From positions 1 through 48,684 of the IMG/VR virus record IMGVR_UViG_3300015263_001317: a stretch of DNA of 48,684 bases; one strand, given 5' to 3'. Positions within the stretch are counted from its first letter, which is position 1, and each line of letters opens with the position of its first letter. The stretch comes from a virus. The notes under the pieces are model-generated. The model saw only the letters and a list, made by a program, of their open reading frames with translations, was not told where the DNA came from and did no database searches. This document shows positions 4,772 through 46,185 of the stretch, piece after piece. Made by a program: the position numbers and the translations under genes.

Positions 4772-4807
4772 AGAAACCTCCTTTGTTCCTATGGTTCTTA
4801 TGCCTGA

Positions 4808-11522: not shown

Positions 11523-11540
11523 TCCGAGGTCTTTCTCCTG

Positions 11541-12512
11541 ATGCGACCCTTTCTACAAGGGTTCACGGATGAGCTGATCAAGCTGGGGAGGGCAGCCTCC
11601 CCAGCCGAACAGCAAAGCCGTGAGCAGGCGCAGGCATTGATGCCGAAGCAACCTTCGGTGCCAATGCCTAAACCTGCTGCAAGCTCTGGTGGGCCAACTG
11701 GTCCAATTCTTCGACAGCGTCCCTCCGAGACACCGTCGATGCCAGCAACCAAGGCGCCGCCCAAGCTTCAGCCGATCGATCCATACGGACCGGGCTACAA
11801 GCCGAAGGAGGACAAGCGCTTTGGCTTTGTTCAAAGGAAGACCACGGCTCCGGCCAGTGTCAGTCAGGAACTCGGCCGACCGAGCAATGCTGCCGGCCCG
11901 ACCCCGGATGCCTTGAAGGCCATCGGTCGACAGACGATGCATTTCGATGGGCGAAGTCCGAAGCCTCTTCTCACGAGAAGCTCCCCCACCTACATTCCGA
12001 AGGCGGCGCCTCCGAAGGAAGAGCCAAAGCCCGAGAAGCGTGGCGGGCGTGGTAGATCGAAAGACTACGGGCCAGACACGAATCTGCGAAGGAAGCCCTG
12101 GGAGACTGGCGGCGAATTCCTCAAGCGTCGGGCTAAAGAGCAGGAGAACTGGAAAGCTGAGCAAGAGAGGATTCGCGGCGAACGCTTCGAAGCCAATCCC
12201 CAGATGAAACAGCGCTCCAAGGCTATCGCCGGCGGCAGCGCCGCGCGAGCAGGAGGCTTCACTTTTTCTCCAAACGAATACCCTCGAGGTGCAACCTCCA
12301 AACAGAGGGCTGAGTGGGACGCTCAACAGGAGTACAATCGCAGGCGGTTGCAAACCCAGGCGAAGGACCGCGAAATCGAATCCATTGAGGAAGCGCATGC
12401 GCGCATCAAGAAAGAGGGTGCACGGGTCAGGGCAGAGCGTGCACGCAAGAAGTACAATTCAGAACTCCGTGCTGGGAAGCACCGGAACCTTCGCGGAATC
12501 CTGAACGACTAA
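11541..12512 (+). CDS. FADEL-tagged, proline- and lysine-rich protein
   Basis: 323 residues. The N-terminus MRPFLQGFTDELIKLGR is a clear member of the tag family with Thr replacing Ala. The remainder is highly polar, rich in Pro, Lys, Arg, Glu and Gln, and probably disordered, ending in charged helices (RAERARKKYNSELRAGK). No transmembrane segment or catalytic motif is visible. High charge and disorder fit a DNA-associated internal head protein. It overlaps the protease-like gene by one base (TAATG), linking the two in translation. Confidence 0.7.
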   Translation: MRPFLQGFTDELIKLGRAASPAEQQSREQAQALMPKQPSVPMPKPAASSGGPTGPILRQRPSETPSMPATKAPPKLQPIDPYGPGYKPKEDKRFGFVQRKTTAPASVSQELGRPSNAAGPTPDALKAIGRQTMHFDGRSPKPLLTRSSPTYIPKAAPPKEEPKPEKRGGRGRSKDYGPDTNLRRKPWETGGEFLKRRAKEQENWKAEQERIRGERFEANPQMKQRSKAIAGGSAARAGGFTFSPNEYPRGATSKQRAEWDAQQEYNRRRLQTQAKDREIESIEEAHARIKKEGARVRAERARKKYNSELRAGKHRNLRGILND

Positions 12513-17037: not shown

Positions 17038-17931
17038 ATGGATCAGATCGACGCCGCAACTTTCAACAACCTGTTCATCTCCAGGTTGGACACCCACGAC
17101 GGGCTCGAGAAGGCAGCCCAGGCCGGTGGCGCATTCGTGCGCGAGCGCCTGCGCGAAGTCTCTTTCACCCGTTCCATCCTCCCACCCGAGTACGTCACGA
17201 AGGCGGACTGCCAGCGCTCTGTCAACCACGACACGCTGGTCAAGATCGTGGACATCGAGCCGCAGTCCAACGCGGCTGCGGTGAACTTCCGCGGCAAGGC
17301 CTTCGAGCGGTACATCGAGGGAGACCGCTACGAGATTCCGTTCTTCAAGATCGAGTCCGAGAAGTTCAAGAAGAACGAGGCCGAGCTCCTCGCCTTCGAC
17401 TACCCGGTGACCAAGGTCATCGAGGAGAACTCCGTCAAGGACATCCAGAAGATCGAGGACGGAAAGTTCATCGAGTTCACCGACGCTGTCATCGCGGCCA
17501 ACGGCAAAGCCGTTACCCCCGCGGCTGCCGGCCCGGCCACCTCGGAGAACCTCGTCGCGCTCTTCAAGGCCCTCGACACCGACGAGCTCGCCGTGGGCAC
17601 CATCCTGATGCACAAGGCGGACTGGGACGACTTCATGACCCAGGAGTCGGCCGTCATCGGTTCTCCGCTCGCGTCCGAGATTCTCGTGAACGGGTACAAG
17701 TACAACACGATTCTCGGCCACAAGTTGGTCGTGACGATCAAGTCGTCGATCGTGCCTCCAGGGAAGATCTACATCTTCACTGATCCCAAGTACCTCGGGA
17801 ACTTCTACATCCTCAACGATACGAAGTTCTACATCGAGAAGCGCGCCGACATGGTCTCCTGGCAGACCTGGGAGTACATCGGCATGGGTTACGGCAACCT
17901 GCGGGCTGCCGCGAGCATGACCCTCATCTAG
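17038..17931 (+). CDS. Major capsid protein
   Basis: 297 residues with AAGGAG at ideal spacing. The layout fits an HK97-fold capsid protein: an N-terminal helical arm (FISRLDTHDGLEKAAQAGGA), an E-loop-like region near residues 80-115 rich in Arg, Phe and Tyr (FRGKAFERYIEGDRYEIPFF), a long central helix, and a beta-rich C-terminal domain ending YIGMGYGNLRAAASMTLI. Codon choice is strongly biased to C-ending codons, as expected of a highly expressed gene. It follows the decoration candidate and precedes neck genes. I see no obvious maturation site in the N-terminal arm. Confidence 0.8.
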   Translation: MDQIDAATFNNLFISRLDTHDGLEKAAQAGGAFVRERLREVSFTRSILPPEYVTKADCQRSVNHDTLVKIVDIEPQSNAAAVNFRGKAFERYIEGDRYEIPFFKIESEKFKKNEAELLAFDYPVTKVIEENSVKDIQKIEDGKFIEFTDAVIAANGKAVTPAAAGPATSENLVALFKALDTDELAVGTILMHKADWDDFMTQESAVIGSPLASEILVNGYKYNTILGHKLVVTIKSSIVPPGKIYIFTDPKYLGNFYILNDTKFYIEKRADMVSWQTWEYIGMGYGNLRAAASMTLI

Positions 17932-30084: not shown

Positions 30085-31476
30085 CTAGTTGATCGGCATT
30101 ACGATTGCCTTGAATTGCTCGTCCTCTCCACGGAGTACCATGCCAGTTTGGTCCTGGTCATCGAGCTCGTGGCTGAAGCTGAGCCTTATGAGGCCGCTCT
30201 GGCAGGCGGAAATCGCCTGAAGCAAGTACCTCCCATTGATCTGTACGTGAACCGCCGGGGGACCGTCGAACCGACGCACCGGGACCCAGTCCTTGAACTT
30301 GTTCCCGTCTCCCCATGCTGTGAGCTCGAGGCGCTCGACCATGGCATCAATCTTGAGCCTCACCGATCCATCTCGGCTGGATTCAAGCGCGGCCTGGGCG
30401 AGCCTTTCTAGCTCCCCGCGGTCCGCCGTCCAGTAGCCAGGATGGTCGATGTCAACCTCTCGCCAGTTCATGACGCTGCGGACACCCTTGCCGCGCATCG
30501 TGGCATTGGCCACAGCAATGTAGTCTTCGCCCCTCCCGATCACCTGGGACTCCGACAGCTCGAGCGCGGCCCATTCCCCGTTTCCAACGGCCTCGAGGTA
30601 GCGAAACAGGCGGTCTGGGATGATGACCGCTGGCGGCAGAACGCTGTCATCCTTGAGCTGCACTTGCATCCTTGGGAGCTGCAGGATGTGCATCCTCCCC
30701 GCGTCGGTTGCTACGGCAGTACACAGGACCCTCGGGTGTCCCTCGAACTCAACAACGTCAAAGTCGAGGAGTACTCCTTTGAGCTCCTCGTCCTTTGGGT
30801 CTTCGCTTCGTGACTGGGCCGGCATCACCCTTGAGCAGATCTCCTTCGCATAGAACGACGGCATTGCCGCTCTTGCCTCCCAGTCCCTGAGCACGGGCTG
30901 CTCGGGAAAGTCTTCGACGCGTCCTCCATAGGGAACAAGCGTTGGCCCCAGACAGAGCTTGTCGTCGTTCAGGCCAACCGCTACGCTCTTGTAGTTGAGC
31001 CGCATCGCATTCACAGCGTTCTTGGCATGCCTCAGCGGCATCATTGCAATGAACCCTGCGCTCGAGCTCGGGCGGGCCTCGATGGCCACAAGAGTCCAGA
31101 TGTCGAGGCTCGAGGATTCGAGGTACAGCCTCGAGGCATCGCCGCCTCGATATGTCACCTTCGAGCTCGAGAGGATCGGCGTATTTGCCCCTTCGGGAAG
31201 AATGAGCTCTGCCGCCGCCAGGAAGCCTAGTAGCGTCTCGCAGCTCACCTCGGCGCCAGGGAACTTGGGAACTCCCTCGGGAGCCTTCTTGAAAAACGTC
31301 TCCGGTGCCTTGGCCTTGGGTTTGACCTGCTCCTCATAGCGGAGCTCTTTGTCGGACACGATCTCCACGGCCGGCCTTGGCACCGCATCTTCTTCGTCGA
31401 TGCAAGCTCTTCTCTCTGCTCGTGGCCCAGGAGCAGAGATATCGCCCCTCAGTGGAACGAGTGCATTTTCTGCCAT
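30085..31476 (-). CDS. dnaN: DNA polymerase sliding clamp (DnaN-like)
   Basis: 463 residues, AAGGAG upstream. The C-terminal domain has the beta-clamp signature: HVQINGRYLLQAISACQSGL, then LIRLSFSHELDDQ and the final FKAIVMPIN, which corresponds to the MPMR end of bacterial clamps. The middle has ATDAGRMHILQLP, the conserved ATDxxR element. The N-terminal 80 residues are an extra low-complexity extension. A phage-encoded clamp would hold a polymerase or nucleases on DNA; no polymerase is in the window. A structured RNA and terminator lie just upstream and may regulate it. Confidence 0.82.
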   Translation of the reverse strand: MAENALVPLRGDISAPGPRAERRACIDEEDAVPRPAVEIVSDKELRYEEQVKPKAKAPETFFKKAPEGVPKFPGAEVSCETLLGFLAAAELILPEGANTPILSSSKVTYRGGDASRLYLESSSLDIWTLVAIEARPSSSAGFIAMMPLRHAKNAVNAMRLNYKSVAVGLNDDKLCLGPTLVPYGGRVEDFPEQPVLRDWEARAAMPSFYAKEICSRVMPAQSRSEDPKDEELKGVLLDFDVVEFEGHPRVLCTAVATDAGRMHILQLPRMQVQLKDDSVLPPAVIIPDRLFRYLEAVGNGEWAALELSESQVIGRGEDYIAVANATMRGKGVRSVMNWREVDIDHPGYWTADRGELERLAQAALESSRDGSVRLKIDAMVERLELTAWGDGNKFKDWVPVRRFDGPPAVHVQINGRYLLQAISACQSGLIRLSFSHELDDQDQTGMVLRGEDEQFKAIVMPIN

Positions 31477-31522
31477 AGCAGACTCCTTCTAGTTGGTGTG
31501 TTTCCTATCCTCCTTATGCCCT

Positions 31523-31562
31523 AAAAAAAATGAGCCTCCCCCGAACAGGACGGGAGAGGCTC
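31523..31562 (-). terminator. Rho-independent terminator upstream of the clamp gene
   Basis: On the minus strand a 12-bp stem (31551-31562 with 31532-31543, one G-U pair) with a 7-base loop is followed by a run of eight T residues (31523-31530). It ends the transcript of 31667-32134 or of the structured RNA, 47 bases before the clamp start codon. Confidence 0.88.
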
Positions 31563-31666
31563 GACAAGACACAGGGTTCCTGCACCCCTTCCCGCCATAG
31601 GCGGAGGTTCCCAGCTGCGCGTCCACCTAACGCAGCAACAATTCAACCTGTAGCGAGTGTGTCTTG
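31563..31666 (-). ncRNA. Structured non-coding RNA candidate, multi-helix junction
   Basis: About 104 bases between the stop of the gene at 31667 and the terminator stem at 31562. CAAGACACA / TGTGTCTTG (31565-31573 with 31658-31666) form a 9-bp closing helix. Inside are GGGT/ACCC (31574-31577 with 31584-31587), CCGCC/GGCGG (31592-31596 with 31600-31604), AGGTT/AACCT (31605-31609 with 31645-31649) and GCTGCG/CGCAGC (31614-31619 with 31631-31636). All are nested and compatible, 29 pairs in total. No tRNA features or open reading frame are seen. The strand is inferred from the downstream terminator. It could be a small RNA or a riboswitch-like leader. Confidence 0.55.
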
Positions 31667-32134
31667 CTAACTCAAACCGGAAAGGTCGAGAGGCGTATTC
31701 TTGGGCAGCATGTCGATCGTGGTCGGGTCGAAGTACTCGACATCCGCCAGGCCGCGATCGTCGACGATGTCGCGATAGCTGATGCTGAACTCCACGATGA
31801 TAGAGGACGACTTGTCGTCGGGATGACAGACGCCAACACGACAGCGGCCCCGAGCGTTGTAGCTCTGCGCCTCGCCCTTCTTGCCAGCCGTTGTGGTCGG
31901 CATCTTGAGCATCTGCACCTTGCCGTTCGCAATGAAGTAGCGGCATCCGCGCTGGTCGCCATCGCTCATGTCAGCCAAGGCCTTGCGCAGGGCGCAGAGC
32001 ATCTTCTCGTGTGGCTGGAGAGGATCGAGTAGACCCTTCTTCTTGTTGAGCTTGAAGCGAATCGTCGACGGAATGACGGTGGAGTCCGGCGCCTTTTTCT
32101 TCGCGTTGAACAGCATTTCTTTTCGTGTTGGCAT
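31667..32134 (-). CDS. Hypothetical protein
   Basis: 155 residues; GGGAG precedes the ATG. The sequence is mixed alpha/beta with a basic N-terminus (RKEMLFNAKKKAPDS) and VEFSISYRDIVDDRGLADVE near the end. Two cysteines in the centre (GRCRVGVCHPDD) and others are present but do not form a clear zinc motif. It lies between the Cas4/RecB-like nuclease and the structured RNA, in the replication/recombination cluster. No family recognised. Confidence 0.6.
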   Translation of the reverse strand: MPTRKEMLFNAKKKAPDSTVIPSTIRFKLNKKKGLLDPLQPHEKMLCALRKALADMSDGDQRGCRYFIANGKVQMLKMPTTTAGKKGEAQSYNARGRCRVGVCHPDDKSSSIIVEFSISYRDIVDDRGLADVEYFDPTTIDMLPKNTPLDLSGLS

Positions 32135-32145
32135 CTGTCTTCTCC

Positions 32146-33321
32146 CTACTTGTCAGGCTTCTGCTGGTAGCCCTCGAAGCGAGTGTACCGCTTCGTCTCC
32201 TCCACTTCCCTCAGGGCATCTGCGAGGAGTGGATTTTCTTTCTCCACCTGTTTTAGCAGTTTCTGCATCTTACGGGAATCGACGTTTGCGATATCCCCCA
32301 GGGAGTGGCCCTCAAACTCTTCGAGAACCTCCTGAACCTTGTCTGCCGGCCAGGTTCGCGACTCCTTCTTGCAAAAGCCGTAGACCCAATTCTCTCCGAT
32401 CCGGACCTCGTCGTTGGCGTCGACGTAGTCCTTCAGCTTCTCCTTGAGGCCCTTCGAGAGGGAGTCCATTACCGTGATCCGCTGGGCAGCCTGAACAGCC
32501 TGCTCCTGGCTGATGATCTGGTTGTTCTCGATGGACAGGTCGTTCGCCAGAGGGCACATATGGATGAAGTCGCAGTACTGGCAGTGCTTGCCCGGGATTG
32601 GATCCCAGCTGTCGATCTCGGAGATCTTCTCCTCCTTGATGAGAAGGGCCTGCTCGAACAGATCCAGGTCCTCCGGGGTTCGCTTGGTCTCGTCGTAGAA
32701 GCCGTAGCGGTTGTAGAAGATCCGAGCCGAGAACGTCTCGAGGTACGGGTAGACCTTCGATGCAAGCCAGCAATAGTTGGTGAGCTGCTCCGGCACGCCA
32801 TAGGCCAGCGGATTGTCGAGGTCCGTCCTGGAGATGATGTGTGGCTGGCTCTTCCAGTCGGTTACGGTGCAGTGCGTTCCGTTGATGTCGATGACATCGA
32901 GGATCCCTCGGTAGGAAGCATCCGACCAGTCACACTCTTCGAACTCATCATCGAGAGCCAGCTTCTCCTCGTGGCCGTAGTAGTGCTTGGAAATCTTCCA
33001 CCGCGAGGCCCAGAGCTTCACCCACTCCATGATTGTCCCGACCTCGCTCACGACAACCTGGGGAGTGCACTCCGCAACCGCCTCCGATAGCTGCTCGAGC
33101 TCCAGGTCGCATGGCTGAATCTCTTCCGTCCTGCAGGTGTGGATCAGGCTCGACAGCGCGTCATGGAGACCCTTCCCGCGCTCAGCGGCCACCCGAACAT
33201 ACCGCTCGTCCACCTTGTCCACGTAGTGAAGCTTGAGGTAGAGCGGGCAAGCCGCATTGTTGGCGAAAGAGTGAGACATCTTGATGGCGAGTTCTTCGCC
33301 GAGCACCTTGATGTACTTCAT
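32146..33321 (-). CDS. Cas4/RecB-like PD-(D/E)XK nuclease with Fe-S cluster
   Basis: 391 residues. The catalytic core is visible: His53 (GKGLHDALSSLI), Asp142 (YRGILDVIDI) and DWKS with Asp155 and Lys157, then the helical Q motif QLTNYCWLA. Four cysteines in the Cas4/AddB arrangement, Cys25 (AACPLYLK) and Cys247, Cys250, Cys256 (CQYCDFIHMC), predict a 4Fe-4S cluster. The enzyme would degrade or trim DNA ends. Downstream residues 260-391 are a helical tail. It directly follows the Sak4-like ATPase gene, a known neighbour pairing for phage recombination nucleases. Confidence 0.82.
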   Translation of the reverse strand: MKYIKVLGEELAIKMSHSFANNAACPLYLKLHYVDKVDERYVRVAAERGKGLHDALSSLIHTCRTEEIQPCDLELEQLSEAVAECTPQVVVSEVGTIMEWVKLWASRWKISKHYYGHEEKLALDDEFEECDWSDASYRGILDVIDINGTHCTVTDWKSQPHIISRTDLDNPLAYGVPEQLTNYCWLASKVYPYLETFSARIFYNRYGFYDETKRTPEDLDLFEQALLIKEEKISEIDSWDPIPGKHCQYCDFIHMCPLANDLSIENNQIISQEQAVQAAQRITVMDSLSKGLKEKLKDYVDANDEVRIGENWVYGFCKKESRTWPADKVQEVLEEFEGHSLGDIANVDSRKMQKLLKQVEKENPLLADALREVEETKRYTRFEGYQQKPDK

Positions 33322-34464
33322 CTACTTGCCACCTTTCTTCGCGACAGCCTTCTTCAGGATCGCGACGATCTTGTCTTTGTTGCCACCGTGCTCGCGAATG
33401 GTCGCGATACGCTTCTTCTGATTCGCATCGAGCTGGTCGAACAAAGACTTGATGTCCTCGTCCTCGAGGATCTTGTTCACCGTCTCGACCTTGCTCTTTA
33501 ACGAAGCGATCAGTGACTCGTCGCTTGGATGTTTTGCGAGCTCGGCGTTGACCTTTGCCTCCGGCCAGTGAAGCTGCTCGAGGAGGCTCTTGATGTCTGG
33601 GTTGTCCAACCTTGCCGCGGCTGCAGCCTTGGCATTCTTCTCCTGCGCGACAGAGCTGATGGGAGCGCTCTGCGTGGGCATGTCGCCCTCGTCGTGAGTC
33701 TTTGCGTACTGGGCGATCTTGTCCACCAATCCGCGCGCTGTCGGCGGCTCAACGGGCTCGAGGGCCGGATGGGTTTTCGTGTAGTACTCGTCGCCGGCGT
33801 CGAACACCGACTCGTACACCGCACCTCCGACCGCACTCGGATCGCGCTGTTTGCGCTGGAAGCAGCACAGGTTGAAGTACTGCACCAGGCTCGACGGCAG
33901 TTTCTTGCCAGCCAGCTGAGGGCGGAAGATGAGCCGCTGGTTGTTGTCCTGGACCTCGTCGGACAGACAGATGACGCCGACGTGCATGTTCAGGTTTCGA
34001 AGCTGGACGACCAGGTGCTTGGTCTTGTCGATGAGCTTGCCCCATTCCTGGAGCGAAACCTGGGCGCCAGGCTTGCCGCCCTTCATGTCGCTCAGGAGAA
34101 TCTGCTGCATGTCGGTGAGAGAGTCCAGCGCCACAGACACAAATGGATGCTCCTCTGTCCCAAGGCGCTCGAGCACCTCGTAAAGGACATCAGCCGCCTT
34201 CTTGATGACCTGGACCTTCCCGTTGACGATCTTCTTCTTGTCCTCGATGAAGATGATCTTCGCATTCGGGTTCACGCGTTTGACGGTCATCGCACCGTGC
34301 TTCTCGGTGAGAAGGACCACCAACGGGTCCGGCAGCGTTGAAAGCAAGTTCGTCTTGCCCGAGCCGGGTGCGCCGTACACCAGCAGCTTTATCCAATCGA
34401 CCTGGGCTTCGCCCGCATCGATTACCTCAATGTCGTCTCCAAAGGAGAAATTCTCTACGCTCAT
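33322..34464 (-). CDS. Sak4-like RecA-family ATPase (recombination)
   Basis: 380 residues from ATG 34464, preceded by AAAGGAAG. Walker A is GAPGSGKT (31-38), Walker B is SVALDSL with Asp114, and the order of strands fits RecA-like ATPases of the AAA_24/Sak4 type used by phages for single-strand annealing or strand exchange. Residues 260-380 are a Lys/Ala-rich helical tail. With SSB and the Cas4-like nuclease it makes a compact recombination module. An upstream in-frame segment to 34500 overlaps a hairpin and is not part of the gene. Confidence 0.72.
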   Translation of the reverse strand: MSVENFSFGDDIEVIDAGEAQVDWIKLLVYGAPGSGKTNLLSTLPDPLVVLLTEKHGAMTVKRVNPNAKIIFIEDKKKIVNGKVQVIKKAADVLYEVLERLGTEEHPFVSVALDSLTDMQQILLSDMKGGKPGAQVSLQEWGKLIDKTKHLVVQLRNLNMHVGVICLSDEVQDNNQRLIFRPQLAGKKLPSSLVQYFNLCCFQRKQRDPSAVGGAVYESVFDAGDEYYTKTHPALEPVEPPTARGLVDKIAQYAKTHDEGDMPTQSAPISSVAQEKNAKAAAAARLDNPDIKSLLEQLHWPEAKVNAELAKHPSDESLIASLKSKVETVNKILEDEDIKSLFDQLDANQKKRIATIREHGGNKDKIVAILKKAVAKKGGK

Positions 34465-34481
34465 CGTCGCTTCCTTTCTGT

Positions 34482-34499
34482 TGCCAGGTTCTCCTGGCA
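34482..34499 (-). promoter_or_regulatory. Leader hairpin ahead of the Sak4-like gene
   Basis: TGCCAGG (34482-34488) and CCTGGCA (34493-34499) form a 7-bp stem with a 4-base loop. On the minus strand it lies just upstream of the ribosome binding site at about 34475, where it could affect initiation or protect the 5' end. The octamer GGCATAAG lies upstream at 34560-34567. Confidence 0.4.
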
Positions 34500-34576
34500 C
34501 GCCACAGATTGAAGATGGTCGCCGGCACTATCACGGGCGCCCCATCTGGTGACAAAAGCCTTATGCCTGTTGGGTA

Positions 34577-36687: not shown

Positions 36688-36708
36688 ACTCGCTCATACT
36701 CCGTGTGA
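36681..36708 (-). promoter_or_regulatory. Tandem 10-bp repeat and TCACAC-NNN-GTATGA element
   Basis: CGCTCATACT occurs twice in tandem (36681-36690 and 36691-36700), one copy overlapping the start codon of the gene at 36364. On the minus strand TCACAC, three bases, GTATGA (36694-36708) is present, and the same arrangement occurs at 43769-43783. TTGACA lies a few bases upstream. A promoter or operator is suggested, but the spacing to TTGACA is not canonical. Confidence 0.35.
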
Positions 36709-36724
36709 GTGTCAACACCCAGCT

Positions 36725-36755
36725 AAAAAAAAAGAGGGGCGACGTTGCGCCCCTC
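36725..36755 (-). terminator. Rho-independent terminator
   Basis: On the minus strand GAGGGGCG (from 36755) pairs perfectly with CGCCCCTC (to 36734) across a six-base loop, followed by nine T residues (36725-36733). It ends the transcript of the acidic gene at 36809 and separates it from the endolysin unit. The 53 bases between the acidic gene and the stem show no gene. Confidence 0.9.
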
Positions 36756-36808
36756 CGGCCTGAGCCTCGTTGGGCCCAGTGCCATTCTTGTATGCCATCA
36801 GGCTGGCA

Positions 36809-39311: not shown

Positions 39312-39609
39312 TGCCTTCACCTCCTGAGCCCAGGGCCATTGCCTCCCTGCGCTTCTTTTCTTCTTTTTCAGACAGTAGTCGCGCCCTCTGTCCCTCGAGT
39401 TGTCTTCTGAGTGTGTCTTCGTGTTCTGGGTATTCCTCCCTGAGAGTCTCGACCAGTTCGTACAACCTCTCTTCCATGTCCTCTCCTGCCATGCGTGCTG
39501 CACGGCCGCGGTCGATCAGCGCTTGGAGCTTTGGGTCGATGACATGCCAAGGCATCACCTCTGGCTTCTCTTCTTCCTCCTGGATCTCTGTTTCCTCTTC
39601 ATCTGTCAT
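39049..39609 (-). CDS. Acidic hypothetical protein with long C-terminal run-on
   Basis: Up to 186 residues from ATG 39609 (ATGA overlap with the DUF5131 gene). Residues 1-95 are plausible protein: an acidic start (MTDEEETEIQEEEEKPEV) and helices (DMEERLYELVETLREEYPEH). Beyond about residue 95 the frame runs 263 bases over the next gene and is Gly/Pro/Ser low-complexity, so the real C-terminus may be near residue 100. Function unknown. Confidence 0.5.
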   Translation of the reverse strand: MTDEEETEIQEEEEKPEVMPWHVIDPKLQALIDRGRAARMAGEDMEERLYELVETLREEYPEHEDTLRRQLEGQRARLLSEKEEKKRREAMALGSGGEGNERDKGSEVQGGVSPVPGELRGGNGRPPGVPGDLPGGKGEASASAAGPSGEGNRELGSDGGDGGVEDSEEVGGVAHTTRASAGSAGR

Positions 39610-40511
39610 CTAGGCCACTCCGTGTGTTGTCGTCCATCGAGAACGGGAAGAGAGACGGTTTTCCCCTTCTCGTCTTTGCTTTGCTTGAAGAAAAACGGGA
39701 TGTCATGAAGCTCGCATTTGTCCCGCAATTCTCGAACCCAACGCATCTCCATCTTTCGAACCTGAGAGCGCGGGCCAGTCTCACACCCAACGATAACCCA
39801 ATCAACACCTTCCTCGAGGGCGTTCAGGTACCCATTGGCGCAACGGGTTGAGTGATATGGGTCTTCGCAGATCGGGCACTCTCCTGGCTCTCCCTGTCCA
39901 CCGCTGTGGTAGATCGGGCAGGTTACAACAGTCAGGTCAAGATGCCCAATCAGGGGCTCAGCTGAGATAAACTTCACGGCCGCCGGGACCGCGATGAGAG
40001 ATGGAACTCTCTCGTCCGCGGCGTCCTGGTCCTCAACACTGACGCCAAGCCAGACGTTGGGGAGGGGCCACTCCATTCCACAGGAGCGCGAGTACTCCCT
40101 CGCTGCAACTGCGGCCGTGCTCTTGAACCACTGCTCCATGTTCTTTCCCCTCTTGGTGAGAACTTGGAACTGGTGCCGCTTTGCCATCGCCATCACCCCA
40201 AAGACATCCCGAATGAAGTCGTAGGGAACATCCTCGTGGAAGAGGTCCGACATGCTGTTCACAAAGACTCGGCGAGGAGCTCCCCAGTGAAGCGGTTCGG
40301 CAAGCTTGTGTGGCTGCGGAATGACCCTCCCCGTCCAGCGGGCACCCCTCTTGGTCATCTTCGCGACGCCCTCGAAGGGTTGCCCCGGCTTGTTGAACCG
40401 AGCCGCCATCTTCTCCGCGTAGCAGAAGCGGCATCCCTCCGAGACCCGTGCGCAGCCTCGCAGGGGATTCCAAGTGCAGTCCGTCCACTCAATGCCGGTC
40501 TTGCTAGACAT
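39606..40511 (-). CDS. DUF5131 (phage Gp37/Gp68) family, radical SAM-like
   Basis: 301 residues from ATG 40511. IEWTDCTWNPLRGC, then CARVSEGCRFCYAEKM with Cys20, Cys27 and Cys30 (Cx6CxxC), NSMSDLFHEDVP, FQVLTKR, LPNVWLGVSVEDQ, ISAEPLIG and the end FFFKQ are hallmarks of the Gp37/Gp68 family, common in phages. The cysteine motif resembles the Fe-S site of radical SAM enzymes, but activity is not established. No partner genes nearby indicate its role. Confidence 0.75.
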   Translation of the reverse strand: MSSKTGIEWTDCTWNPLRGCARVSEGCRFCYAEKMAARFNKPGQPFEGVAKMTKRGARWTGRVIPQPHKLAEPLHWGAPRRVFVNSMSDLFHEDVPYDFIRDVFGVMAMAKRHQFQVLTKRGKNMEQWFKSTAAVAAREYSRSCGMEWPLPNVWLGVSVEDQDAADERVPSLIAVPAAVKFISAEPLIGHLDLTVVTCPIYHSGGQGEPGECPICEDPYHSTRCANGYLNALEEGVDWVIVGCETGPRSQVRKMEMRWVRELRDKCELHDIPFFFKQSKDEKGKTVSLPVLDGRQHTEWPR

Positions 40512-40875
40512 CGCCGAACCTGCTTGTGAATGGGGATAGATCTTCAGTGCTGTTGATGTTGCCATCTGCTTCCTCGTACCAAATTCGAGCCATCATCTCG
40601 GCGCCACGAGCCGTCTCTTCGATGGAGTCCATGTTTGACTCCTCGCAGAGCCTCAGGTCTGTCATCGCGTCAACAATGTCCTGGTACCACCTAAGCAGCC
40701 TTCCCCTTGGCTCCGGCCTGCTGAGCTCGAGAGCCGTCATGTAGAGCGCCCTCGACTTGAGCAGGCACGAATACCGAATGCGCTCGGCAGACCGCCTGTA
40801 GGCGGCCCAGAACATTGCAGCTCTCTGCATCTGTGTCTGCGCCTCCCGTTTGGCCCTATCCCTGTCGTTTTCCAT
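40504..40875 (-). CDS. Hypothetical helical protein
   Basis: 123 residues from ATG 40875, preceded by AGGAGG. Helical and Arg/Glu-rich (QRAAMFWAAYRRSAERIRYS, LRLCEESNMDSIEETARGAE). Codons upstream in frame belong to the antisense of the plus gene at 40967. It overlaps the DUF5131 gene by eight bases. No domain recognised. Confidence 0.6.
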   Translation of the reverse strand: MENDRDRAKREAQTQMQRAAMFWAAYRRSAERIRYSCLLKSRALYMTALELSRPEPRGRLLRWYQDIVDAMTDLRLCEESNMDSIEETARGAEMMARIWYEEADGNINSTEDLSPFTSRFGDV

Positions 40876-41363: not shown

Positions 41364-41406
41364 ACGCCCTTCTTATGCCATCATTGGCGTAGGGAGGGCG
41401 TTTTTT
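41364..41406 (+). terminator. Rho-independent terminator
   Basis: ACGCCCT (41364-41370) pairs with AGGGCGT (41395-41401) and TATGCCA with TGGCGTA inside, a long interrupted stem, followed by six T residues at 41401-41406. It ends transcription of the gene at 40967. The next plus-strand ATG follows one base after the T-run. Confidence 0.88.
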
Positions 41407-46153: not shown

Positions 46154-46185
46154 GGGGAACCTCCTTCTAGGAGACCTTATGCCTG

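Follow-up and report, generated by a model that had tools for sequence, protein, structure and literature searches.

A candidate structured RNA between two replication genes of a bacterial virus, with a terminator that may belong to its fold

The DNA analysed here is a stretch of 48,684 nt (IMG/VR virus record IMGVR_UViG_3300015263_001317), referred to below as the window. On its minus strand a 190-nt gap separates a 155-aa gene (31667-32134, stop codon included) from a sliding-clamp-like gene (30085-31476). We suggest, on balance, that this gap between two replication genes of a bacterial virus carries a non-coding structured RNA of ~133-160 nt. The features of the locus and the copies of the motif GGCATAAG are as follows.

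34560..34567, minus strand: GGCATAAG, probable promoter of the operon ending in the RNA
33322..34500, minus strand: Sak4-like recombinase gene, start at 34464 or 34500 (phrog_124, E 4e-29)
32146..33321, minus strand: PD-(D/E)XK exonuclease gene (PF12705, E 5e-18)
31667..32134, minus strand: 155-aa gene that closes the upstream operon (identity of 51-58% over the whole length in five distinct relatives)
31565..31666, minus strand: core RNA domain, three-way junction P1/P2/P3, 102 nt (fold z-score; same architecture in relatives G001/G007 and G002)
31658..31666, minus strand: P1 closing stem, 5' strand CAAGACACA (sequence; pairs 1-8 with probability 0.94-1.0)
31591..31657, minus strand: P2 arm, variable, two near-isoenergetic folds (ensemble fold)
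31573..31588, minus strand: P3 hairpin, flush with the P1 3' strand, loop GCAGGA at 31578-31583 (ensemble fold; flush 5-bp 3' hairpin conserved)
31565..31573, minus strand: P1 closing stem, 3' strand UGUGUCUUG (sequence and ensemble pairing)
31532..31562, minus strand: intrinsic terminator, a 12-bp hairpin whose loop UCCUGUU (31544-31550) is complementary to that of P3
31523..31530, minus strand: T-run of the terminator (sequence)
31513..31520, minus strand: GGCATAAG, putative clamp-unit promoter with a predicted start near 31506
30085..31476, minus strand: sliding-clamp-like gene, DNA polymerase processivity factor (phrog_947, E 2.7e-9)
4797-4804, 41372-41379 and 46176-46183, minus strand: further copies of GGCATAAG

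The first base of P1 directly adjoins the TAG that ends the 155-aa gene, and the clamp ATG at 31476 lies 46 nt past the T-run. Against Pfam the clamp-like protein gives a weak, sub-cutoff match to DNA_pol3_beta_3. A sequence-only reading of this region had described five nested helices with a 9-bp closing stem directly after the stop codon and a terminator two bases beyond it. This observation is confirmed as a whole: the helices (9+5+6+5+4 = 29 pairs) are present at this place on the minus strand, P1 (CAAGACACA/UGUGUCUUG, 31666-31658 / 31573-31565) follows the TAG, and the 12-bp terminator hairpin (31562-31532) stands two bases past P1.

The 102-nt domain has a minimum free energy of -43.5 kcal/mol (z about -2.9, from -2.87 to -2.97), and 1 of 200 shuffles is equally stable; the exact five-helix set proposed earlier scores -37.3. 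The predicted ensemble retains P1 and the GGGU/ACCC hairpin (P3), with pairs mostly at p > 0.93 and the innermost P1 pair at only 0.33. The helices AGGUU/AACCU and CCGCC/GGCGG survive only as minor alternatives and are displaced by a longer arm (CUCGCUA/UGGCGGG...) in ~85% of the ensemble. A four-branch variant of the domain is just 0.3 kcal/mol off. Beside the folded domain the terminator forms with a probability above 0.99, and P1, P3 and the terminator are predicted to be the robust parts of the fold. A perfect 9-bp stem closing a 102-nt span occurs at 2 of 48,582 positions, P1 among the two. However, 4.9% of all 102-nt windows of this phage are equally stable (1.6% after G+C correction), so the stability of the domain alone is modest against the whole phage, and the case had to rest on relatives and placement. 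The most stable predicted fold of the window is found elsewhere, at 11523-11690 on both strands, as several long hairpins in series that are intergenic or fall at the beginning of the 11541/11739 reading frame.

Relatives were sought via the clamp, 155-aa, helicase and phrog_2045 proteins, the first three tested in viral contigs, and none of use was obtained; the Sak4 alignment is too divergent to serve as a search query. The phrog_2045 protein itself (39606-40565, minus strand; E 4e-91) has counterparts of ~45% identity in many Gordonia and Mycobacterium phages. With the capsid-like protein (17038-17931, plus strand) as the query ten viral contigs are recovered, seven of them 87-96% identical in that protein, as compared with 36-46% for the clamp. 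The annotated major capsid protein of Salmonella phage Arash shares 32% identity with the capsid-like protein, as do proteins of the Vibrio phages D69/D148/D181. Six of the contigs carry the clamp with the adjoining 155-aa protein (55-59% identical over the matched part), and no homologue of either was found in G003, G008 or G009. Since G001 equals G007 over the gap, there are five further distinct versions of the gap beyond that of the window.

In G001/G007 and in G002 the gap contains a closed, branched RNA with a terminator behind it. Its layout is common to the window, G001 and G002: P1, 1-3 nt, a long P2, 0-2 nt and P3 of 5-6 pairs, then without a spacer the P1 3' strand, 2-3 nt and the terminator. 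P1 is CAAGACACA/UGUGUCUUG in the window, UGAGCAC/GUGCUCA in G001 and GCAGGU/ACCUGU in G002, so the helix is kept while its sequence is replaced. The P2 arm is not conserved among the three. Fold z-scores are -4.43 for G001 and -2.45 for G002. The layout (a three-way junction with a framed P1 of at least 6 pairs and, flush with P1, a simple 3' hairpin of 5 pairs or more) is reached by 1.2%, 0.4% and 1.1% of shuffles of the window, G001 and G002 RNAs, respectively; these percentages are somewhat flattering, because all three folds were known when the layout was defined. The comparison comprises three distinct RNA sequences, and the same shape in nearly wholly different sequence suggests a real, so far undescribed element rather than an accident. 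The RNA has no counterpart at the locus in other lineages: the gaps of G004 and G006 consist of ~20 nt and a plain terminator, and that of G005 has neither RNA nor clear terminator. The two relatives with only a plain terminator indicate that the RNA is dispensable. In G005 (L074 2200-2435, plus strand) two copies of GGCATAAG at a distance of 228 nt enclose a stretch between the 155-aa and clamp genes that appears to be non-coding and possibly corresponds to a different RNA.

The most telling feature, absent from the sequence-only reading, is the complementarity between the loops of P3 and the terminator. In the window GCAGGA faces UCCUGU (one G-U), in G001 GACAGG faces CCUGUC, and in G002 the loop pairing is fully re-sequenced, with GUGUGGGG facing CCCCACGC (one G-U). 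A scan of 754 kb (window and relatives, overlapping pieces) for a hairpin 4-16 nt upstream of a terminator with at least 6 complementary loop bases covered 99 terminator-like sites, and only these three RNAs were returned (five entries, two of them duplicates). A candidate in G004 (L130), with 5 complementary bases and a long P1, was rejected, as it falls within a long coding frame, apparently that of a terminase. A second strong terminator of the window (36733-36756, within 36688-36808, minus strand) follows two hairpins that come right behind a stop codon; neither of them has a loop complementary to the terminator loop. With loop composition held fixed, the probability of the pairing is 0.057, 0.076 and 0.054 per RNA and about 2e-4 jointly; since the window and G001 share a CAGG/CCUG core, independent re-pairing rests on G002. 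The lengths of the stems match as well (12-14 bp for P1+P3 and 10-12 bp for the terminator stem), making it possible for the terminator to lie alongside the P1-P3 stack. Hence, we suggest from the sequences that the P3 and terminator loops kiss within one molecule.

The motif GGCATAAG occurs 5 times in the window, with 0.76 copies expected, and none of 100 shuffles reached 5. Over the window (5) and six relatives (9, 10, 11, 9, 5 and 5) the strand bias is 54:0, and a reversed control pattern gives 0-2 copies per record. The more distant G008 has two copies and G009 none. In an alignment the copies agree in CA at -15/-14, in a T-rich stretch and in T(G/A)AA-like bases at +13 to +16; they are often closely followed by a Shine-Dalgarno sequence and a start codon. 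Judged by its position and strand, GGCATAAG is probably a phage promoter; no phage study of the motif was found among the matches listed. A copy is placed between the RNA region or terminator and the clamp in the window, G001, G002 and G006, a one-base variant, GGCACAAG, in G004, and in G005 GGCATAAG precedes the clamp start. In G002 a further copy overlaps the 155-aa stop codon just before the RNA, and the transcript predicted from about 54168 has no ATG, GTG or TTG in its first 30 nt. No copy directly before the RNA was found in the window or G001. With this second copy the RNA of G002 looks like a stand-alone small-RNA gene.

Searches for a known family gave no match. None of the Rfam 15 covariance models reaches its gathering score in the window. 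Under relaxed settings sroE (20.8 bits against 51), RAGATH-32 (10.9 against 41.8) and ctRNA, also far below threshold, appear and were rejected, and the RNAs of the relatives give far-below-threshold matches only. ARAGORN reports no tRNA or tmRNA in the window or relatives, nothing in phage records resembles the window RNA, a BLAST search with the G001 and G002 RNAs finds no match among phages, and no peptide is shared among the three RNAs. DNA pattern scans for the RNA yield 17, 11 and 0 matches in viral contigs, on inspection unrelated and mostly coding sequence, and 8 matches in genomes. The earlier statement that the region fits neither a tRNA nor a known RNA family thus stands.

We favour, with guarded confidence, the interpretation that this is a structured phage RNA, not previously described, with the terminator as a part of its fold. 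The transcript of the Sak4 / PD-(D/E)XK / 155-aa operon would start at GGCATAAG near 34567 and end near 31523, and the window RNA would be its 3' end. The 3' end has the form expected of a 3' UTR-derived sRNA, as a terminator and T-run follow the last operon gene. Because P1 starts at the stop codon in the window, a terminating ribosome would hold P1 open, and folding would take place once the last ribosome is released. The kissing of the P3 and terminator loops would then lay the terminator hairpin beside the P1-P3 stack and into the fold, and the docked terminator may shield the 3' end of the RNA from exonucleases. The clamp would be transcribed anew from the separate GGCATAAG past the terminator, near 31506. 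In G002 the RNA, with its own GGCATAAG, would be a separate small-RNA gene from about 54168 to its terminator. The product would be a stable RNA, released with or from the operon transcript or made by itself, which may act post-transcriptionally by binding a protein or a target RNA. We infer that a stable, post-transcriptionally acting RNA with a protected 3' end is the likeliest molecular task. More tentatively, this might be a new class of phage RNA in which the terminator, beyond marking the end, is a structural module that kisses the three-way junction, providing either an exonuclease-proof trans-acting RNA or control of termination by the upstream fold via the terminator loop, in place of an antiterminator.

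Another role, which we consider rather unlikely though deserving of attention, is that of a 3' UTR stabiliser, which protects the 3' end of the recombination operon mRNA and insulates it from the clamp unit with no action in trans. In the window and G001 the RNA indeed comes right after the stop of the last operon gene, ends in the terminator and lacks its own promoter motif, and P2, the expected place of a target or ligand site, is not conserved. However, the promoter motif directly before the RNA of G002 would be superfluous for an mRNA stabiliser, and G004 and G006 manage with a plain terminator. A fold arisen by chance next to an ordinary terminator is very improbable: while folds of like stability occur in 1.6-4.9% of 102-nt windows of this GC-rich phage and G004 and G006 lack the RNA, the architecture and the loop complementarity are repeated at the same locus in three diverged lineages.

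The sequence-only reading had offered a discrete small RNA or a riboswitch/attenuator. The former is supported by the architecture common to three diverged lineages and by the putative promoter before and terminator after the RNA of G002. In the latter case the P3 loop would pair with the emerging terminator loop and delay or help termination, tuning read-through into the clamp, with a ligand, a protein or translation of the 155-aa gene (a ribosome at the stop codon would cover P1) as the cue. The location ahead of the clamp, the complementarity of the two loops, the start of P1 at the stop codon and the G002 promoter, which would turn the RNA into a leader, all speak for such control. Nevertheless, GGCATAAG between the terminator and the clamp makes a clamp riboswitch unlikely, since in the window and relatives the clamp would have a promoter past the terminator, as far as its promoter role, itself deduced, holds. 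No convincing mutually exclusive antiterminator was found in the window, G001 or G002: the best upstream pairing of the terminator 5' strand reaches -15.9, -9.8 and -12.0 against -25.6, -18.1 and -21.9 for the hairpin, and pairing as good is found in 9.4% of random windows. Moreover, the terminator forms almost always next to the folded domain, P2 shows no aptamer-like conservation and some relatives lack the RNA. We therefore regard the attenuator or riboswitch as improbable, and of the earlier interpretation the small RNA and the absence of a known family remain.

Among known systems, 3' UTR-derived sRNAs are mostly loosely structured Hfq/ProQ base-pairing RNAs, and the phage sRNAs with a described function stem for the most part from prophages or temperate phages and work by base pairing. 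Like the former, the window RNA is located at the 3' end of an operon and ends in an intrinsic terminator, with a possible promoter of its own in G002; unlike them, it has a closed three-way junction, and its terminator loop is complementary to one of the loops within the fold. Like the latter, it is a short non-coding RNA carried by a phage. The sRNAs derived from 3' UTRs that share the mRNA terminator are reviewed in PMC9438474 and the phage-derived ones in PMC12197685, where the word 'kissing' is absent. These two are the nearest kinds, and the docked terminator sets the window RNA apart from them. The purine riboswitch aptamer is a P1-closed three-way junction with two helices held side by side via a loop-loop contact. 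Both of its kissing helices are inside the junction, whereas here one is the terminator outside P1, and there is no Rfam match. The pRNA of phi29, likewise a small RNA of a phage, combines a three-way junction with two hairpin loops that are complementary to each other; these loops pair between molecules, and the RNA serves packaging. The window RNA shares the junction and the complementary loops (which might pair within or between molecules) but lies in a replication region, and some relatives have no RNA at the locus.

Structured RNAs of uncultivated phages are poorly catalogued, and a sequence search cannot find this one, because its copies share the architecture and the loop pairing and almost no sequence. 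If GGCATAAG is a promoter, it would provide a transcription map for a phage group whose genomes measure at least 110-120 kb. Should the loop-loop contact be real, a terminator hairpin would serve here as a building block of an RNA fold.
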